Made by a program: the position numbers and the translations under genes
The notes under the pieces: generated by a model
Told to the model about the DNA's origin: nothing
What the model saw: only the letters and a program-made list of their open reading frames with translations
The model's database searches: none
In this document: positions 2,495 through 59,895 of the stretch, one piece after another
Position numbering within the stretch: the stretch's first letter is position 1
Layout of the letters: each line of letters begins with the position of its first letter
NCBI GenBank assembly: GCA_004764695.1
Contig: SMSO01000032.1
Coordinates: forward strand, 6,282,668-6,346,667
DNA from: Schizochytrium sp. TIO01
Lineage: Eukaryota > Sar > Bigyra > Thraustochytrida > Thraustochytriidae
Direction: 5' to 3'
Length of the DNA: 64,000 nucleotides

Positions 2495-3700
2495 GATGCT
2501 AATGCGATGTCTTTCTGTAAATCCACATGGTGTTTCAACAATTGTAAAAAAGCGTTGTTAGTCTCATATGGCATAATAACTTGAGTCAATGAGGATTTCT
2601 CGATACGTGCATTCCTCATCTCAGAAGCCCACGGCGTACACAGCTAGCTGCAACCTGTCTATCGACCTTTCAGGACATTGAATTGACCGCGGTTCGTCCT
2701 CCAAACAGGCCAAAGGATAGATAGACAGATAGATACCCCCAAAGTCCTTTTCTTGTCACTCCATTCACTTGCAACAACATCAACACCATAGTGCTTATTT
2801 GAAGAAGAAGCTTTGTGGGGACTTCGAAGCAGGACATACGGGTTCGTTTGGCAGCAACCAAGGCTTCAATCGGGTAGACGGGCCTCAGCGTAGTGGTTTC
2901 CAAGTGCATGTTGCATCGAGGTTACGTACCGACGGGTTTTTCTCTCGCTCGAGTGGCGAGATTCGGGTTTGCTGCCGCAGATCTGTCTCGACGGCATTGT
3001 TCCCCGCGTTCCCGCCAAGTCTGCTAAAGTGGCACCACTTAAAGTTTTACTTTTGTCTCTCACGAACGAATAATGTGAATGTCTTGTGAGGGGGCCTTCC
3101 ATTTTTTAATTTTACTTTTAAGATTTTGAAAATTACTTCTCTAAACTAATAAGAGACGAATAAAAACGATGCGTGTATATGAATGAACATCGCTGCGTAG
3201 CTTAGAGCAGTTTCCAGGGAGGGTGCAGAGTGAGGGAGAGGTGACGGTCCGCCGATTAATCGGTCGGTCGTCTCGACTTTGGCATGTGCGTGCATGGTTT
3301 AGGTAGGTTTTCTATTCAAAGCGGCAGCAAAGCCATTGAGCTGCTCGGAATCGAAAGAAAGTTTTAATAAAGGCAAAAAGAAAAAGATATATATTAAAAA
3401 AACAAAAACGTTTTGGGCTTTGTCTGTTTTTATTATTATTTTGCTTTTATAACTAATTTAATTTTGTTTAGTGTACCTTTGTGACTTTTAAGATGAGAGG
3501 ACAAAGGAAGAAAGGAAGGCACTGAGGGGCGCAAACTCATCCATACAATAGGTAGTGAAGTGATTCATCACGAATCGCCTCTGTTTTCACGGCTTTGTCA
3601 GGTGTTGATAAGAAACAAATAAATAGACTAAAGGCAGAGAAAAGGCATTGTGAGGGCCAAAAAACAAAGCGTGGTTTCAGCAGGTTTGCGAAGATGTTTC

Positions 3701-3743
3701 ATCAATCAATAAATCAATCAATCAATCAATCAATCAATCATCA
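3701..3743. repeat. (ATCA)n microsatellite
   Basis: About ten ATCA units with one AATC slip near the start. Confidence 0.95.
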
Positions 3744-4963
3744 CTTGCATTGCTGTTTTTAATAGTCACACTATTGGAGGGGGTTTTAGAGCAGCTAGAT
3801 TGGCGAGTTAATAGATATATTAGCTATTTAGGAGGATCAGCTTTTGGGTTCACGGATTGTGATGGATGATAAACTATGGATCAACGGCAGATGAAGATCG
3901 CCTTGGAAACAACTTGCTTTGCTTTATGGATGGACATCCGCTCCGATTTCGTGGAATTCGCTGTGGCTTTGGATCACAGCTGGCCGAGACTGGCGTTCGC
4001 AGTTGCGTCGCGGGTTATCCTGGTGGCGTCGTCAGTTCGTCGGTAGCTGGCTAGCTTGCTATAGCTCGCGAGACTTCTAAAACTCGGTATCTCTATTGCA
4101 GACAAAGCGGATCTTTCAGGACTAACTCAGGCCACGAAAAGGCTGCCTTTTCCGGGCTCCAGCGAAAGCCAAGAAACAAACTACACAAACTATACAAATC
4201 ATCAGTCGAACCTGAGAAAGCGGGTCTTAACAACTTACCTCGAATACATATATATATTAGATACACAATCTGTATTTATGTCGAACTGCCTACCGGTACT
4301 TGCTTCCTGGCAGTGCAGGTGGTTCCTAAATTGTAGAAGGTATGCTTTATCTCTGCCAGAGCTCTAGCGTAGTAGTAGCTCGCTACAAACTTGAACGATT
4401 CGTGTCCAAGAATAACCAACAACCTGCTCTTGGCCATCACAAACACTCCTCACTTCAAATCCAATCGCATTGCATTTTATTGAATTGCATTGGTTTGCTT
4501 TGCTTTGCACTGCACTGGAGCGCATTACATATTATCCTAGCGCCGTGAGGACATAAACAAAAATGTTTGTACACTCCCAAATGGTTTCTTGAAAATCTCT
4601 TGTTCTCCTCCGTCTCCTCTGAACAGCAGCAAAAGTAATATTTTTCTAATTTGCAACTTGAAAAGTAAAATAAAAATAATTGAATAAAATTATAATTTGC
4701 CTTTAATTGTAACATCGCATGCAAAGCATGGAAGGAGGAGGGGAAGCGGCTTTTGAGGGAAGAGTAACAGTCCAACGAAACTAGGCTCTTCTGCCGCCGA
4801 GTTCAGGCTTCGCGAGCGATACCGAGGAAATAGATCTATCTCAGGCAGGGCACGGGCCGCCCCGGCTCGCTGATTTCGATTTCTTGGCCGCGACCCGCAG
4901 CCTTAGTTAAGCTTGTTCTCTCATTTCTCTCTCTGTGGCTGCGGCCTTTTCACTCGTAATCGA

Positions 4964-45189: not shown

Positions 45190-45318
45190 GCTCACTCACT
45201 CACTCACTCACTCACTCACTCACTCACTCACAAACGTGCATAAATGAATTATAAATGAATTACAAATGAATTATAAATGATTTATAAACGATATATAAAT
45301 CATTTATAAATGGTATTA
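45190..45318. repeat. (CACT)n followed by ATAAATGAATT-type repeats
   Basis: CACT units at 45190-45232, then imperfect 11-base ATAAATGAATT/ACAAATGAATT units to about 45318. Confidence 0.85.
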
Positions 45319-45762: not shown

Positions 45763-47868
45763 ATGGCGGAGCTCCTCAGACAGGACTCAGGCCTAAGGGC
45801 CCACGAGACTGCCTCGATGCAGCGCGACGGACTTGGGACGGGTGCAAGCTCGAGGGACCGCTTAACCCGCGAGGGCGCCAACGCGAGAGATCGCAAGCTT
45901 TCTTGGTCCTCGATGCTTGCGTCTACGCTGATGGGCGATAGAAGTGCAGAGGATTTCGACAGTGACAATGATGGCGTCGACGACGACAATGTGGACAGTG
46001 ACTTCGAGGATGCTGAGCAAGATGGAGACAGTGCGTACGGATTTGGAAGCACCCGGCATCGCGTAGCAAGGGCATTTTCATTGTCATCTTACCTGGGCGT
46101 GATCAACGTCTTTAGCACAGCCAACGGCGATGAAGATGCGGACTACTGCGACAGCGAGGGTGGTTTCACGCCGCTTTCGCCCCACACGCCCATCTCGGGA
46201 AGGCGTAACTCATGGGCAGGAAGCTTCTCCCCACTCAGACCTTCAGATGCCACTGATACAGGATTGTCAGCGATGGACTCCCCAAGGCAACTATCAGGAG
46301 ACAACCCTGCTGGATTACGATGTGTTAGCCGCGGCGGGCAACCACACATGCGCCTGAGGCCGCTCGTGCTTCGTGAAGCAGCGCCCGAAATGGGTTCATC
46401 AACGCCTCTGTCTTCGCCGTATTCGTTGCCTCCAGAACAGTGCGGCGAGCAAGAACCTGAGCTGGAGTTCGAACCCCAATCGACTGCCGCAAGCAAACGT
46501 GCTCGGTACCTGTGCAAAATCAATCCGGATGGTAAACCTATGACAAAGGAAGAAGAGCTCGAGGCCATGTACAACAGCTTTGCATCGGGTGAGCAGCTTC
46601 CGACGCCGCCCGAGGCAGAGTTCAAGAAGCCCGCCCCAGTGGCTTGTCCCAAATCGCCCATGAGTACAGATTGCGTCACACCATACACTGCAGAAAATGA
46701 TGTGGACGTGGACCTGAACGATAGCAACGAAGACACATTCTCGGTGATTGATGAGGATTGCTGCTTTATATGTATGGCACCTTTCTCCGACGACGATGAG
46801 TCAGAACGAATCGAGCTCCCCTGTGTCCGCGGATGTAATAAAACCCCGGTCCATGCTAAATGTATTTTTGAGTGGCGAGAGCATCGTAACAACTCCAAAG
46901 AGGCCTCTGGCACATGCCCGTTATGCCGTGGCCCTCTAGGCTACATTAAATATCTTCCACCAGACCCTCTGAACCGCGCTGGGTTCGTAGTCTTTGAGGC
47001 TCGCCGTGAGTTTGTATTGCACCCAGTGCCACGTGAGCATGGCACACTTCGCTGTTTTGTGCGCGTAACACCCTCTGGGTGGCTGGGAGTAAACTCCTAT
47101 CAAATGTATATTCAAGCACCCTGTGCGCTACCTTATCCTCAGGGATCGCTGCCTCTTGCGGAGGGTCCTGTTCAGGGCGACCAACTTTTGATGTGCGCGA
47201 AGAAGCGAAATCCTTTTTTTGGCTCACCTCGAGTTGACATTACACTAGATCGAAATGGTAAAGACTACGATACAAAGGGGCCGAATTATATCGGTCATGT
47301 GAACTCGAACTTTATCGGCCTAGAACACACTGTTGTACAACCCTACCAAATGGATGACAAACGCACTGGGTATCAGGAGCTTGCTTGCGTCATGTACCAG
47401 CAGAACCGTATTGGTATGGGTATGGGTCCTCGCAGGATGCGTGTTTGTATACCGGTCACAGAGGAGCATGAAAATTCTGACGAGCCAGCAACAACGGCGA
47501 TGTACCGACCTTCTCGCAAGAAGGATAGTCTTGCCTCTCTGTTGCAGAGTTCCACGCCTGATGAGCTTATCTCGAATCAAATCGTGCAATATGGTGAGAA
47601 TCGGGAGCCTAGCTGGCTTGAGGCGATCCAAGCGTATTCTCTCGACTTTTACGGGCGCGTTACGCTTCCCTCAAACAAAAATTTTCAGCTCTGCTTACAC
47701 GATGATCCAGAGGCAGCCGACACCTGTGTTTTGCAATTTGGCAAGATTGTATCACACGAGAGTAATGACGTAGCAGTGTACACCTTGGACTTTCAATATC
47801 CTATGTCACCATTACAAGCTTTTGGAATTTGTATTAGCGCTGCTGACCGGAAATTCATGTGTGCTTAA
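45763..47868 (+). CDS. RING-CH (C4HC3) plus C-terminal Tubby domain protein, putative E3 ubiquitin ligase
   Basis: 701 aa, single exon, ATG in the strong context CCGCCATGGCG. Residues 1-~320 are Ser/acidic and likely disordered. A zinc-binding module follows: Cys334-x2-Cys337-x16-Cys354-x3-Cys358-x5-His364-x2-Cys367-x17-Cys385-x2-Cys388, the C4HC3 order of RING-CH/MARCH-type fingers, with Trp371 after the His. Residues ~425-701 match a Tubby domain throughout: LRCFVRVT, QLLMCAKKR, DTKGPNYIGHVNSNFIG, ACVMYQQNRIG, GPRRMRVCIP, SYxLDFYGRVTLPSNKNFQ, LQFGKI, and a C-terminus YPMSPLQAFGICIS ending near ADRKFMCA. Tubby domains bind PI(4,5)P2, and RING-CH domains recruit E2 enzymes, so a phosphoinositide-directed ubiquitin ligase is the natural inference. 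There is no transmembrane segment, unlike many MARCH proteins. Confidence 0.9.
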   Translation: MAELLRQDSGLRAHETASMQRDGLGTGASSRDRLTREGANARDRKLSWSSMLASTLMGDRSAEDFDSDNDGVDDDNVDSDFEDAEQDGDSAYGFGSTRHRVARAFSLSSYLGVINVFSTANGDEDADYCDSEGGFTPLSPHTPISGRRNSWAGSFSPLRPSDATDTGLSAMDSPRQLSGDNPAGLRCVSRGGQPHMRLRPLVLREAAPEMGSSTPLSSPYSLPPEQCGEQEPELEFEPQSTAASKRARYLCKINPDGKPMTKEEELEAMYNSFASGEQLPTPPEAEFKKPAPVACPKSPMSTDCVTPYTAENDVDVDLNDSNEDTFSVIDEDCCFICMAPFSDDDESERIELPCVRGCNKTPVHAKCIFEWREHRNNSKEASGTCPLCRGPLGYIKYLPPDPLNRAGFVVFEARREFVLHPVPREHGTLRCFVRVTPSGWLGVNSYQMYIQAPCALPYPQGSLPLAEGPVQGDQLLMCAKKRNPFFGSPRVDITLDRNGKDYDTKGPNYIGHVNSNFIGLEHTVVQPYQMDDKRTGYQELACVMYQQNRIGMGMGPRRMRVCIPVTEEHENSDEPATTAMYRPSRKKDSLASLLQSSTPDELISNQIVQYGENREPSWLEAIQAYSLDFYGRVTLPSNKNFQLCLHDDPEAADTCVLQFGKIVSHESNDVAVYTLDFQYPMSPLQAFGICISAADRKFMCA

Positions 47869-56143: not shown

Positions 56144-57253
56144 ATGTCTGTCGGCCGCGAAGGCAGTTCAAACAGCACTCAAGGCGCTAATGATACTCCT
56201 GAGCATCGCGAGGCTCTGCGCGCGGTGTTGCGGCGTTCTCTTTCAAACGAAGGCGTCCAAGTAGACTTTGCTGCGGATGAGCAGGACGCAGTTCTCCTTC
56301 GACACGTTTCTGGCGGGGACCTCGACGGAGATTTCGACGATGATGAAGACCAGCTCACCAGCGACACAAGCCCCGTCCACGGCGGAGTTCGTGAGGCATT
56401 TCTATTCTATGGCGCCAAGTTCGCTCTCACGGGCACCTCCGCAATGCTAGCCGAATCTGCAACATTTCCCATCGAGCAGATTAAGGTGCGGCAGCAGCTT
56501 TCGACAACTTCAGGTTCTGGATTTCTTTCCACCGCAGCTCATGCGGTAAAATCAGAAGGTATTCAAGGTCTTTATAAAGGCCTCGCTCCCGCTGTGCTGC
56601 GTCACGTACCTTACACAGGCTCTCGAATCCTGCTGTATGACAAGCTTCGAGGTGTCTTCATTCAGGAGGACGGCTCCGCTCCTTTTGTGAGCAAACTCTT
56701 TGTTGGATTTACAAGTGGTGCTGTTGGACAGACAATTGCGGTGCCCACTGACCTCGTAAAAATCAGACTTATTGGTGATGCTCAGAAGGCAGAGTCTCAG
56801 CGAAGATACAAAGGCCTTCTGGATGCTTTTCGAAAGATCCCTCGTGAGGAAGGTGGTATCTTGGCACTTTGGAGTGGAAGCTCTCCTGCAATTTTGAGAG
56901 CGGCGCTTGTGAATCTTGGTGAGCTGGCTACTTATGATGCTGCTAAACGTAATTGGCTGGCCACAGGGCTTGTGGAGGACGACTTCCGCTGCCACGTTCT
57001 CTCTGCGGCTGCATCGGGACTTGTAGCGAGTTTTGTGAGCTGTCCTGCGGATGTTGTCAAGAGCCGTATTATGAACAATTCAAAGGCTTACAATGGCATC
57101 TTGGACTGTGCGGTGCGAACCGTCAAGGCTGAAGGAACGCTTGCGATGTGGAAGGGCTTCTTCCCGACGTGGGCACGTCTTGCACCGTGGCAAGCTGTGT
57201 TTTGGGTGTCGTATGAACAGTTGCTTAGACTCAGCGGCATGGGCTCCTTTTAG
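56144..57253 (+). CDS. Mitochondrial carrier family (SLC25) protein, UCP/dicarboxylate-carrier-like, with acidic N-terminal extension
   Basis: 369 aa, single exon. Start chosen at the ATG in GGCGCCATGTC; the frame is open a little further upstream without an ATG. Three carrier repeats are visible by their P-x-[DE]-x-x-[KR] signatures: FPIEQIKVR (~108-116), VPTDLVKIR (~200-208) and CPADVVKSR (~300-308), each followed by a second helix. The end, WKGFFPTWARLAPWQAVFWV plus SYEQLL, is typical of the uncoupling-protein/dicarboxylate/oxoglutarate branch. It should exchange or transport small anions across the mitochondrial inner membrane; the substrate is unknown. The ~85 residues before the first helix, with the acidic run GDFDDDEDQ, are unusual, because carriers of this branch generally begin within a few residues of TM1. 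It converges on the carnitine acyltransferase gene. Confidence 0.88.
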   Translation: MSVGREGSSNSTQGANDTPEHREALRAVLRRSLSNEGVQVDFAADEQDAVLLRHVSGGDLDGDFDDDEDQLTSDTSPVHGGVREAFLFYGAKFALTGTSAMLAESATFPIEQIKVRQQLSTTSGSGFLSTAAHAVKSEGIQGLYKGLAPAVLRHVPYTGSRILLYDKLRGVFIQEDGSAPFVSKLFVGFTSGAVGQTIAVPTDLVKIRLIGDAQKAESQRRYKGLLDAFRKIPREEGGILALWSGSSPAILRAALVNLGELATYDAAKRNWLATGLVEDDFRCHVLSAAASGLVASFVSCPADVVKSRIMNNSKAYNGILDCAVRTVKAEGTLAMWKGFFPTWARLAPWQAVFWVSYEQLLRLSGMGSF

Positions 57254-57702: not shown

Positions 57703-59895
57703 CTAAAGCTTAGCCATCGGGTTAGTGCTGAGTACCTCGTGAATGTCACGAAAGGCCTGCTTAATCATCTCTGTGAAACGAACCGCATCCTTTGTGCCAC
57801 CAGAGCGCTTACGAGACACAACAGTAGCTACAATCGAGTCTGAGCTCGTGAAACGATAGCACGTGGCGTACGCTTTCGGGTCGTATGCGCCGAAACCAGG
57901 CCAATCCTCCATGGCCCAGGGCATTTGCGAGGTGGACAAAGTAAAGCAAGTGCTCACCTGGTAAGCCTTATCCGCAAAAATGGCTGGGGTTTCGATGCCG
58001 TTCATGGCTGCGAGCACGCGTAGTCCCAATAAGTGACGATCAATACCCTTGCCAGCCATGCAACGCCTCATATAGTTACGGTGATAGTCAGCGGCAGCAC
58101 GAATAAGATCAGCAACCTGTGCACGGGGTACTGAGGAGTTATCAAAAGCTTGTAAGAACTCCTTCATTGCCAATGATTGTGGTCGAATAGTTTCCGTTCG
58201 ACCATGGAAGAAGCCACGCGTCGATGCCGTTTCGTAAGGCACGGGGACCTCGCCTTGATCACGGTAGTACGCTAAGGCCAAAGACATTTGCACGAAAGAG
58301 TCAGTAGTTACAGGTTTGCAGGTGCTGCTAATCGTTTTGGCGCCAAACTCAAGAAACTCAAGAGCTACAAGAGTATTATCGTCGATGATCTTCGCGAGGT
58401 CAGCTTTGGCCTTATGCAGAGCCTTGTGCAGGTCAGCATCCAGCTCAAAGTCCAGGCGTCTGGGTTTAGCAAGAGATGAGCTCTTCGTGCCAAATGGAAC
58501 ACGGGTGACCTCCATTTTAGCAAGACCTGGCGTATACTTGTCGCCAAGCTTCACGGAATACCCAACCTCTGGGCAATTGGCGTGAATGAACTCATCCACG
58601 TACGTCCAAAAGCGAGCAGGGACAACGGCGTCGGCACTGGTGTGCTCTAGGTTACTAATCATCACGCCATTGTCGCAAATCAGGTGGCTACCACTTTTAT
58701 CAAACCAGATTTGTTCGCCATTACCACACTGGCCTTGACGTTGGGCTTCAGATGGGGTATCCGGCGTTGCCTCACTCAAGCAAATGTGAAAGATTGCAGA
58801 TTCCATGATCTCTAGCATCTCAGCGTTGGCCTTGCTGAGTTTACGGAGTTTATCACGTGCATCAGCCCAACTATCACGATCCGTGCCAGTAAAGGCGGCA
58901 ATGCCAGGGCCCCGAGCCTGCACATCGGCGTCATCCTTGATGGCTTGCAACACCTCGTAAAAGTCCGCAACGGAATACTCGTGGACATTGTCGAGGACGT
59001 ACCAGTGTCCACGGCGTTCAACACAAATGTGGCGGCTCTCTGTATATGTCATAAGATGATCACAGTTCTTGAGCGGGATGCGCGTCGTAGAATATACACG
59101 CATGTATTGCGAGTTGCAGAGGACGGCACCCTTGCCAGCCTTTTCTGGTTCCACAAGTTGCTCCACAAGCTGGCGCTGGGCATCAAGGCACCCCTTGAGG
59201 AACCACGCGCCACGAAGCAAGGGCTGTGAGCACGGACGCGAACGCAAGTGCGTCTGGAAGCAGTTGATATTGACGGCAAGGCTTGTGCGGTCCTCAAGGT
59301 ATGCTTTGGACTCCCACCATTCCTCAAGCCAGTGCGCATTTGGATACGCGGATCCATCAGGATGATTTGCGGGAGTCACGATTTTAGGCCCATCCCGGGG
59401 CTTAATTTTGGATGCACGCTCCAACAGCATAGCATGGAGCTTCTCACCTACACCACCCGCACGGCCAAAATCTTCGACCTTCTTTTTAGTCTCTGTGAAC
59501 AGAGAAGTATTTTAAACATGCATGTGGCATCCAAATACGGTTAGTCCTTTCTCTGAGTATCATCGTGCAGTCCCACAAAGCACCTCGTCGTAGCCTGTCT
59601 GAACAATTTATTCATACTGGACGTAATCTGTAAAGAATGCTGCTCAAATAAGAGTTTGAGGGCTAAGCTGTCATGTGTACTAGTCTCACAGTTTGCATTT
59701 GCGACCTGTTCTTATTATAGCTCCAATAGACTGACGGACTGAGTATTTTGTTTACTTGCACTTACCTGCAAATTCCTCCTGGGTCAGAAGGGGCTCCACG
59801 GACTCGAGGTAGACCTTGAGGGTCTCCTTGAGGTCTGGCACAGGCAGCACCGGCAGGCTGCTCTGCATCTCAAACGTCTTGATCTTGGGTGCCAT
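57703..59895 (-). CDS. Carnitine O-acyltransferase (choline/carnitine acyltransferase family), two exons, C-terminal PTS1
   Basis: 639 aa after joining exon 1 (59895-59766, minus) to exon 2 (59492-57703). It exchanges acyl groups between acyl-CoA and carnitine. Exon 1 supplies the family N-terminus LPVLPVPDLKETL ... YLESVEPLLTQEEFA; the junction (phase 1) continues as ETKKKVEDF, matching the family. Catalytic His327 lies in SNLEHTSAD; the carnitine-site region YETASTRGFFHGRTETIR (~463-480) and the LSTSQM motif (~562-567) are intact. Length matches carnitine acetyltransferases (~600-650) rather than CPT1, and no membrane segments are present. The C-terminus Ala-Lys-Leu is a canonical peroxisomal PTS1; no clear mitochondrial presequence is seen, so a peroxisomal (possibly dual) location is inferred. 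Confidence 0.92.
59493..59765 (-). other. Intron of the carnitine acyltransferase gene
   Basis: On the minus strand the donor is GCAG|GTAAGTG and the acceptor TTCTCTGTTCACAG|AG, 273 bases, phase 1. Removing it restores a continuous family-consistent reading frame. It is the best-supported intron in the window. Confidence 0.88.

Follow-up and report, generated by a model that had tools for sequence, protein, structure and literature searches.

In animals the Tubby (Tub) domain is joined to ubiquitin ligases via a SOCS box, and in plants via an F-box. TULP4, the SOCS-box Tubby-like protein, couples its Tub domain to a ubiquitin-ligase link and reaches a cullin ligase through WD40 repeats plus the SOCS box, while the F-box of the plant proteins needs SKP1, cullin and RBX1. 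The gene described here, from the thraustochytrid Schizochytrium sp. TIO01, encodes a Tub domain that is likewise preceded by a putative N-terminal ubiquitin-ligase module, as in the plant Tubby-like F-box proteins (TLPs) AtTLP3 and MdTLP7. The module of the plant TLPs is an F-box, whereas in the Schizochytrium protein it is a RING-type finger itself; similarly, where TULP4 uses WD40 repeats and a SOCS box, this protein has a built-in RING finger. The Tub domain is what it has in common with mammalian Tubby, TULP1 and TULP3, as solved mammalian Tubby/TULP chains match it in the Tub domain alone and never in the finger.

The lipid binding of Tubby proteins provides a second point of comparison. 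Excerpts of two reports describe binding of PI(4,5)P2 by mouse tubby via residues K330 and R332, and a second basic lipid site at residues 301–305 (PMC10445746, PMC6366083). Equivalents of K330 and R332 are still present in a good number of plant TLPs, according to the excerpted part of one of these sources (PMC6366083).

The window, by which is meant the whole 64,000-nucleotide stretch of DNA analysed, contains the gene at positions 45763–47868 (+) as a single open frame of 701 codons plus stop, with no internal stops; all features of the gene given below lie on the same strand (+). Its ATG sits in GCCATGG, and an in-frame stop is found seven codons upstream of the ATG. The N-terminal region (residues 1–331; 45763–46755) is poorly conserved, with 17% pairwise identity across the window protein and three paralogues introduced below, and it gave no match in a Pfam scan at E-values up to 1. 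An NCBIfam search with the window protein returned 0 families. An AlphaFold2 model of residues 325–701, computed without an alignment, had a mean pLDDT of 36.5, and nothing is drawn from it. Approximately 10 CTCA repeats occupy window positions 45191–45231, some 530 bases upstream of the start codon.

The Tub domain (residues 420–695 by Pfam; 47020–47865) starts approximately 30 residues past the finger, which spans C334 to C388. The Pfam Tub family (PF01167) matches the window protein with 145.9 bits (E = 2.2e-42), above its curated cut-off of 27 bits, and the match covers positions 3–255 of the 256 in the profile, i.e. a near full-length domain. Six PDB sequences of Tubby/TULP proteins also match the protein with E-values of 3.5e-23 to 1.9e-21, of which the best solved relative is TULP1 (2fim, E = 3.5e-23); their alignments begin at residue 477, 495 or 501, and five of the six reach residue 700. 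An earlier, sequence-only reading of this DNA had placed a full Tub domain after a zinc finger in one uninterrupted frame. Both points are borne out, by the near-complete Tub profile match and by the 701-aa frame, whose finger-then-Tub order recurs in the three paralogues; so too, as judged by sequence, is its proposal that a RING-type finger stands with a full Tub domain at the place of the plant F-box. Pfam found no F-box in the window protein (E up to 1) or in 14 other Tub proteins of the genome (E up to 0.1).

The paralogues were found by searching the genome of this one species, 64 Mb in 37 contigs. PF01167 gave 16 matches, two of them within one 787-aa frame, which amounts to at least 15 Tub genes; this count is taken from the best-scored candidates only, and more are possible. 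A RING-like Cys/His pattern lies within the Tub frame of 3 of the 14 genes outside the window (L013, L017 and L018), and the order of finger then Tub in one open frame is accordingly seen in 4 of the 15 Tub genes found. These four, here called RING-Tubs, are all single open frames, and three of them are on contig C36, two approximately 36 kb apart. No RING was matched by Pfam (E up to 0.1) in the other 11 Tub open frames, a scan confined to those frames that finger exons lying beyond them would escape. The recurrence of finger and Tub exceeds chance, as three paralogues repeat the combination in one frame, and the RING-Tub architecture is real and repeated.

As the frame was called without regard to introns, an annotation artefact might also produce such an arrangement, either from two adjacent genes lying in one frame or from an unseen intron between finger and Tub. 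The junction between the two domains (residues 391–425; 46933–47037) bears on this question. Across 210 codon pairs, which derive from six gene pairs and are not independent, codon positions 1, 2 and 3 of the junction differ in proportions of 0.45, 0.38 and 0.71, with 43% pairwise amino-acid identity. The corresponding values are 0.45, 0.36 and 0.69 (43% identity) for the first part of the Tub domain, and 0.68, 0.63 and 0.74 (17% identity) for the N-terminal region. Because its codon-position differences match those of the first part of Tub, the junction is coding in this frame and conserved. Since four paralogues share the arrangement and the junction is constrained in the same frame, a read-through or gene-fusion artefact was rejected, and an annotation error of either kind is considered highly improbable.

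In a tree built from the Tub domains only (16 rows, 276 columns), a branch with support of 99/99 sets the four RING-Tubs apart, and two genes with SH3 and GYF domains (L010 and L011) group with support of 100/100; six of the remaining rows sit on long branches, and 8 of the 13 inner branches have support under 80. A group test, confined to the RING-Tubs versus the two SH3-GYF rows, adds little: the result held in 100% of 200 bootstrap trees, and 75 of 500 shuffles were as low. The single clade is observed, and from it the fusion may have arisen once and then been duplicated in the lineage, with the timing and direction of these events conjectural. Among viral contigs, 28 pattern matches to RING-Tub relatives were obtained and 0 were confirmed. 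In open-licence PubMed Central, the titles and abstract starts of the best matches named no RING-Tub protein. As far as these limited literature searches reach, the RING-Tub joins two known domains in a new, undescribed way.

The finger (46762–46926) has the ligands C334, C337, C354, C358, H364, C367, C385 and C388, in C4HC3 order, with the pattern C-x2-C-x16-C-x3-C-x5-H-x2-C-x17-C-x2-C. The spacing common to all four RING-Tubs is C-x2-C-x(14 or 16)-C-x3-C-x5-H-x2-C-x(13 to 17)-C-x2-C. In Pfam, residues 333–389 of the window protein scored 25.1 bits with zf-RING_2 (cut-off 27.3 bits) and 14.8 bits with RINGv (PF12906; cut-off 21.6 bits), and each of the four RING-Tubs missed both cut-offs (zf-RING_2: 25.1, 22.5, 22.4 and 26.5 bits; RINGv: 14.8, 15.5, 13.4 and 16.8 bits). 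Pfam placed the C-terminus in Tub, as the sequence-only reading had it, and left the finger sub-threshold with both RING models. Against solved structures, a profile of the four fingers had RNF38 as its best match (E = 3.4e-4) and also matched MEKK1 (0.29) and DOA10 (0.87); the L018 finger alone matched RNF4 (E = 2.6e-4), RNF38 (0.002) and DOA10 (0.047); and a whole-protein profile matched APC11 (E = 1.2e-5), RNF38 (2.7e-5) and the SWIM-RING of MEKK1 (5.4e-5). On these comparisons and on the invariant residues given below, the finger looks like the RING of an E3 ligase.

Assignment of the finger to a class within the RINGs is less direct. RING-CH fingers have the core spacing C-x1-C-x7-H-x2-C, and most MARCH family members have transmembrane helices. 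The RING-Tub finger shares its C4HC3 order with RING-CH/MARCH proteins and with DOA10, the latter a weak structural match. It differs from them in that all four RING-Tubs have C-x3-C-x5-H-x2-C instead of the RING-CH core, score below the RINGv cut-off and gave no transmembrane-like stretch in a simple 19-residue Kyte–Doolittle scan (largest mean 1.32). The sequence-only reading had named a RING-CH finger; its C4HC3 order and RING type hold, but RING-CH as the exact class was rejected on the spacing and on the sub-threshold RINGv scores in 4/4. MEKK1 and its SWIM-RING kind share the C4HC3 order, the C-x3-C between ligands 3 and 4 and the terminal CPLCR with the RING-Tubs, but MEKK1 has C-x4-H where the RING-Tubs have C-x5-H.

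Fingers elsewhere in the same genome represent both kinds. Searching the genome with the window finger gave six scored matches, namely the finger itself, the other three RING-Tubs (E = 1.7e-16 to 3.6e-13) and two proteins outside the family, L027 (E = 0.006) and L028 (E = 0.017). The L027 finger (59 aa) has exact RING-CH spacing and scores above both cut-offs (RINGv 23.2 bits against 21.6; zf-RING_2 33.9 bits against 27.3). Among solved structures it is closest to RNF13 (E = 1e-4), which we take to be a RING-H2 protein, and it also matches a chain that is presumably MARCH-type (E = 0.025). L028 (G000:C30, around 5105336–5105455) is a protein with a RING and a ZZ finger, and its alignment to MEKK1 (E = 1e-14) takes in the SWIM and RING parts of the latter; in Pfam, its ZZ match is above the cut-off and its zf-RING_2 match below, and there was no SWIM match. 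It presumably resembles ZSWIM2-type ligases.

When the RING-Tub profile was scored against four comparison fingers, which were chosen by hand and do not constitute a survey, the ranking was L027 (34.9 bits), L028 (27.6), RNF38 (24.9) and MEKK1 (17.5). The RING-CH-spaced L027 is thus the best non-family match in the genome and the best of the four comparison fingers, a point in favour of the original RING-CH label, while L028 is of the MEKK1/SWIM-RING kind and MEKK1 itself scored lowest. Because of the genome search for kin and this profile scoring, the finger is described, on sequence, as a C4HC3 RING with spacing between RING-CH and MEKK1-like, neither by letter.

Conservation within the finger extends beyond the metal ligands. 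In addition to the eight ligands, residues I336, P353, N359, P362-V363, A365-K366, I368, E370, W371, P386-L387 and R389, among others, are invariant across the four RING-Tubs. In particular, Ile at C1+2, Trp at C6+4 and the CPLC followed by Arg are unchanged in 4/4. We take the Ile between C1 and C2, the Trp after C6, the Pro after C7 and the Arg after C8 to be positions that hold E2~ubiquitin in RING E3s, and Arg389 (46927–46929), directly after the last finger Cys, to stand where RINGs have their 'linchpin' Arg. An excerpted source gives the linchpin Arg of RING E3s a role in holding E2~ubiquitin (PMC12326332).

A RING fold does not always imply catalysis, and some RINGs lack ligase activity, such as those of class VI TRIMs in the excerpt cited (PMC6487577). 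The RING-Tub could accordingly be a non-catalytic scaffold, i.e. a Tub-based adaptor with a structural zinc finger and without ligase activity, to which the unusual ligand spacing and the two sub-threshold RING models would be suited. Such a scaffold is nonetheless judged quite unlikely: the four paralogues, divergent as they are, all share the same E2-contact-type residues and the Arg that follows the last Cys, and the top structural matches of the finger are RINGs of E3 ligases.

What the Tub domain might bind was assessed from its lipid-binding positions. N310 and R363 are presumably further PI(4,5)P2 ligands of Tubby. Its residue numbering fits the printed sequence at one offset, which places the N in SNYLIS, the K and R in GKLRSN, the R in LRQEL and RKRKK at 301–305. 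All 15 genes were aligned with Tubby; in this alignment, which joins distant sequences and may be one residue off, above all at N310, the positions N310/K330/R332/R363 read R/H/N/Y in the window protein, V/C/K/Y in L013, Q/H/A/V in L017 and V/S/S/Q in L018. The K330 and R332 positions of the window protein are H512 and N514 (residues 512–514; 47296–47304), and by this alignment the canonical PI(4,5)P2 ligands are lost. All four pocket positions are replaced in 4/4 RING-Tubs, although R332 to Lys in L013 is conservative. Tubby has these pocket residues and plant TLPs often keep the K330/R332 equivalents, whereas in the RING-Tubs they are replaced. The pocket residues are a functional feature, and assignment to the Tub family on sequence does not depend on them.

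Of the 14 Tub genes with letters at the pocket (L019 has none there), only L009 keeps all four residues (N/K/R/R, as in Tubby). Among the 10 of these 14 that are non-RING genes, four keep no pocket residue (L010, L011, L012 and L014, with a gap at the R363 position in L010 and L011) and five keep one or two. As far as the alignment tells, loss of the pocket in this genome extends beyond the RING-Tubs.

The second basic lipid site is partly retained. Tubby RKRKK (301–305; PMC10445746, in excerpt) corresponds to K480, K481, R482, N483 and P484 of the window protein (47200–47214), and the four RING-Tubs read KKRNP, RKRTL, HKRPE and QKRLT at this site. Two or three of the five basic residues remain, from which binding of acidic lipids by the RING-Tub is possible.

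The alignments bear on a model in which a RING E3 is recruited to the plasma membrane by Tubby–PI(4,5)P2 binding, ubiquitinates nearby membrane proteins and is released when PI(4,5)P2 falls. The nearly complete Tub profile, the Lys-Arg of the second basic site kept in 4/4, the His that the window protein and L017 have in place of K330, and the Lys at R332 in L013 would all accord with this model. However, N310, K330, R332 and R363 are replaced in 4/4 RING-Tubs and all kept in L009. In the excerpted study of mouse tubby, R332H alone was enough to lower both the affinity for PI(4,5)P2 and clustering, and with KR330/332AA clustering was almost lost (PMC10445746). Complete pocket loss in 4/4, as aligned, weighs against canonical PI(4,5)P2 sensing, which was rejected as the leading mechanism on these replacements, and recruitment of this kind appears unlikely, though it might still act through the reduced basic patch. 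The phosphoinositide sensing that the sequence-only reading had coupled to ubiquitination consequently lacks support in its canonical form, with all four checked pocket positions substituted and 2–3 of 5 basic residues left at the second site.

The preferred reading, which we consider probable, is that the RING-Tub is a single-chain RING E3 whose Tub domain has been repurposed for targeting. The RING would recruit E2~ubiquitin, given its invariant E2-contact and linchpin-type residues. The short linker, for which constraint is observed and the geometry is conjectural, may hold the finger against the Tub domain, and the Tub domain would bring the ligase to its target. Because the canonical pocket is gone in 4/4, the most likely ligand of the Tub domain is a protein or some lipid head-group that is not PI(4,5)P2, and the reduced basic patch may aid the binding. 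The loss of the lipid-gripping residues suggests that what was once a lipid sensor now aims a one-piece ubiquitin ligase. A more specific version, which is put forward tentatively and may well be wrong, is that RING-Tubs form a lineage-specific class of one-piece ligase with the pocketless Tubby barrel as substrate receptor, a solution shared with the plant F-box-Tub proteins but reached independently and with a RING, in which a lipid sensor would have become a reader of protein or of a new ligand.

If the preferred reading is true, a distant protist would have a third, self-contained route from Tub to ubiquitin, with the RING built in. This would point to Tub as an aiming module that can be reused for ubiquitination. 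Pocketless RING-Tubs separate the role of Tub as lipid sensor from that as targeting module, and a small recombinant protein would suffice to test the latter directly.

Several other Tub genes of this organism have features of their own. L009 (G000:C5:151000-157500), with the best Tub score in the genome (E = 1.9e-83) and four intact pocket residues, is probably the conventional Tubby of the organism. L010 (G000:C30:2419000-2425500) and L011 (G000:C6:1895000-1901500) have N-terminal SH3 and GYF domains followed by Tub, an unusual combination, and their PI(4,5)P2 pocket positions with letters are also replaced. The N-terminal half of L014 (G000:C30:1870000-1876500; frame 2869–4560, +), upstream of Tub, is BTB-BACK-like by eye, but this part had no Pfam support for BTB-BACK (E up to 0.1) and matched 0 solved chains (E up to 10). 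In L012 (G000:C30:2913000-2919500), sub-threshold PDZ and zinc-ribbon-type matches lie upstream of Tub.

The window also carries metabolic genes for a CoA transferase (305–2494, −), a mitochondrial carrier (56144–57253, +) and a carnitine acyltransferase (57703–59430, −), with no evident link to the RING-Tub gene. Elsewhere in the genome, G000:C4:591651-617209 is a PUFA-synthase-like locus with PfaA-like (omega-3 polyketide-type) sequence. A PfaA-like search of 14 control genomes gave matches in 11/14 and exceeded the family cut-off in 0, a cut-off that a 2172-aa PfaA-like frame on C4 exceeded with 1157.4 bits. A 2044-aa open frame with a weaker PfaA-like match lies on the opposite strand, approximately 14 kb off, and the PUFA-synthase locus of thraustochytrids has a divergent gene pair of this kind.
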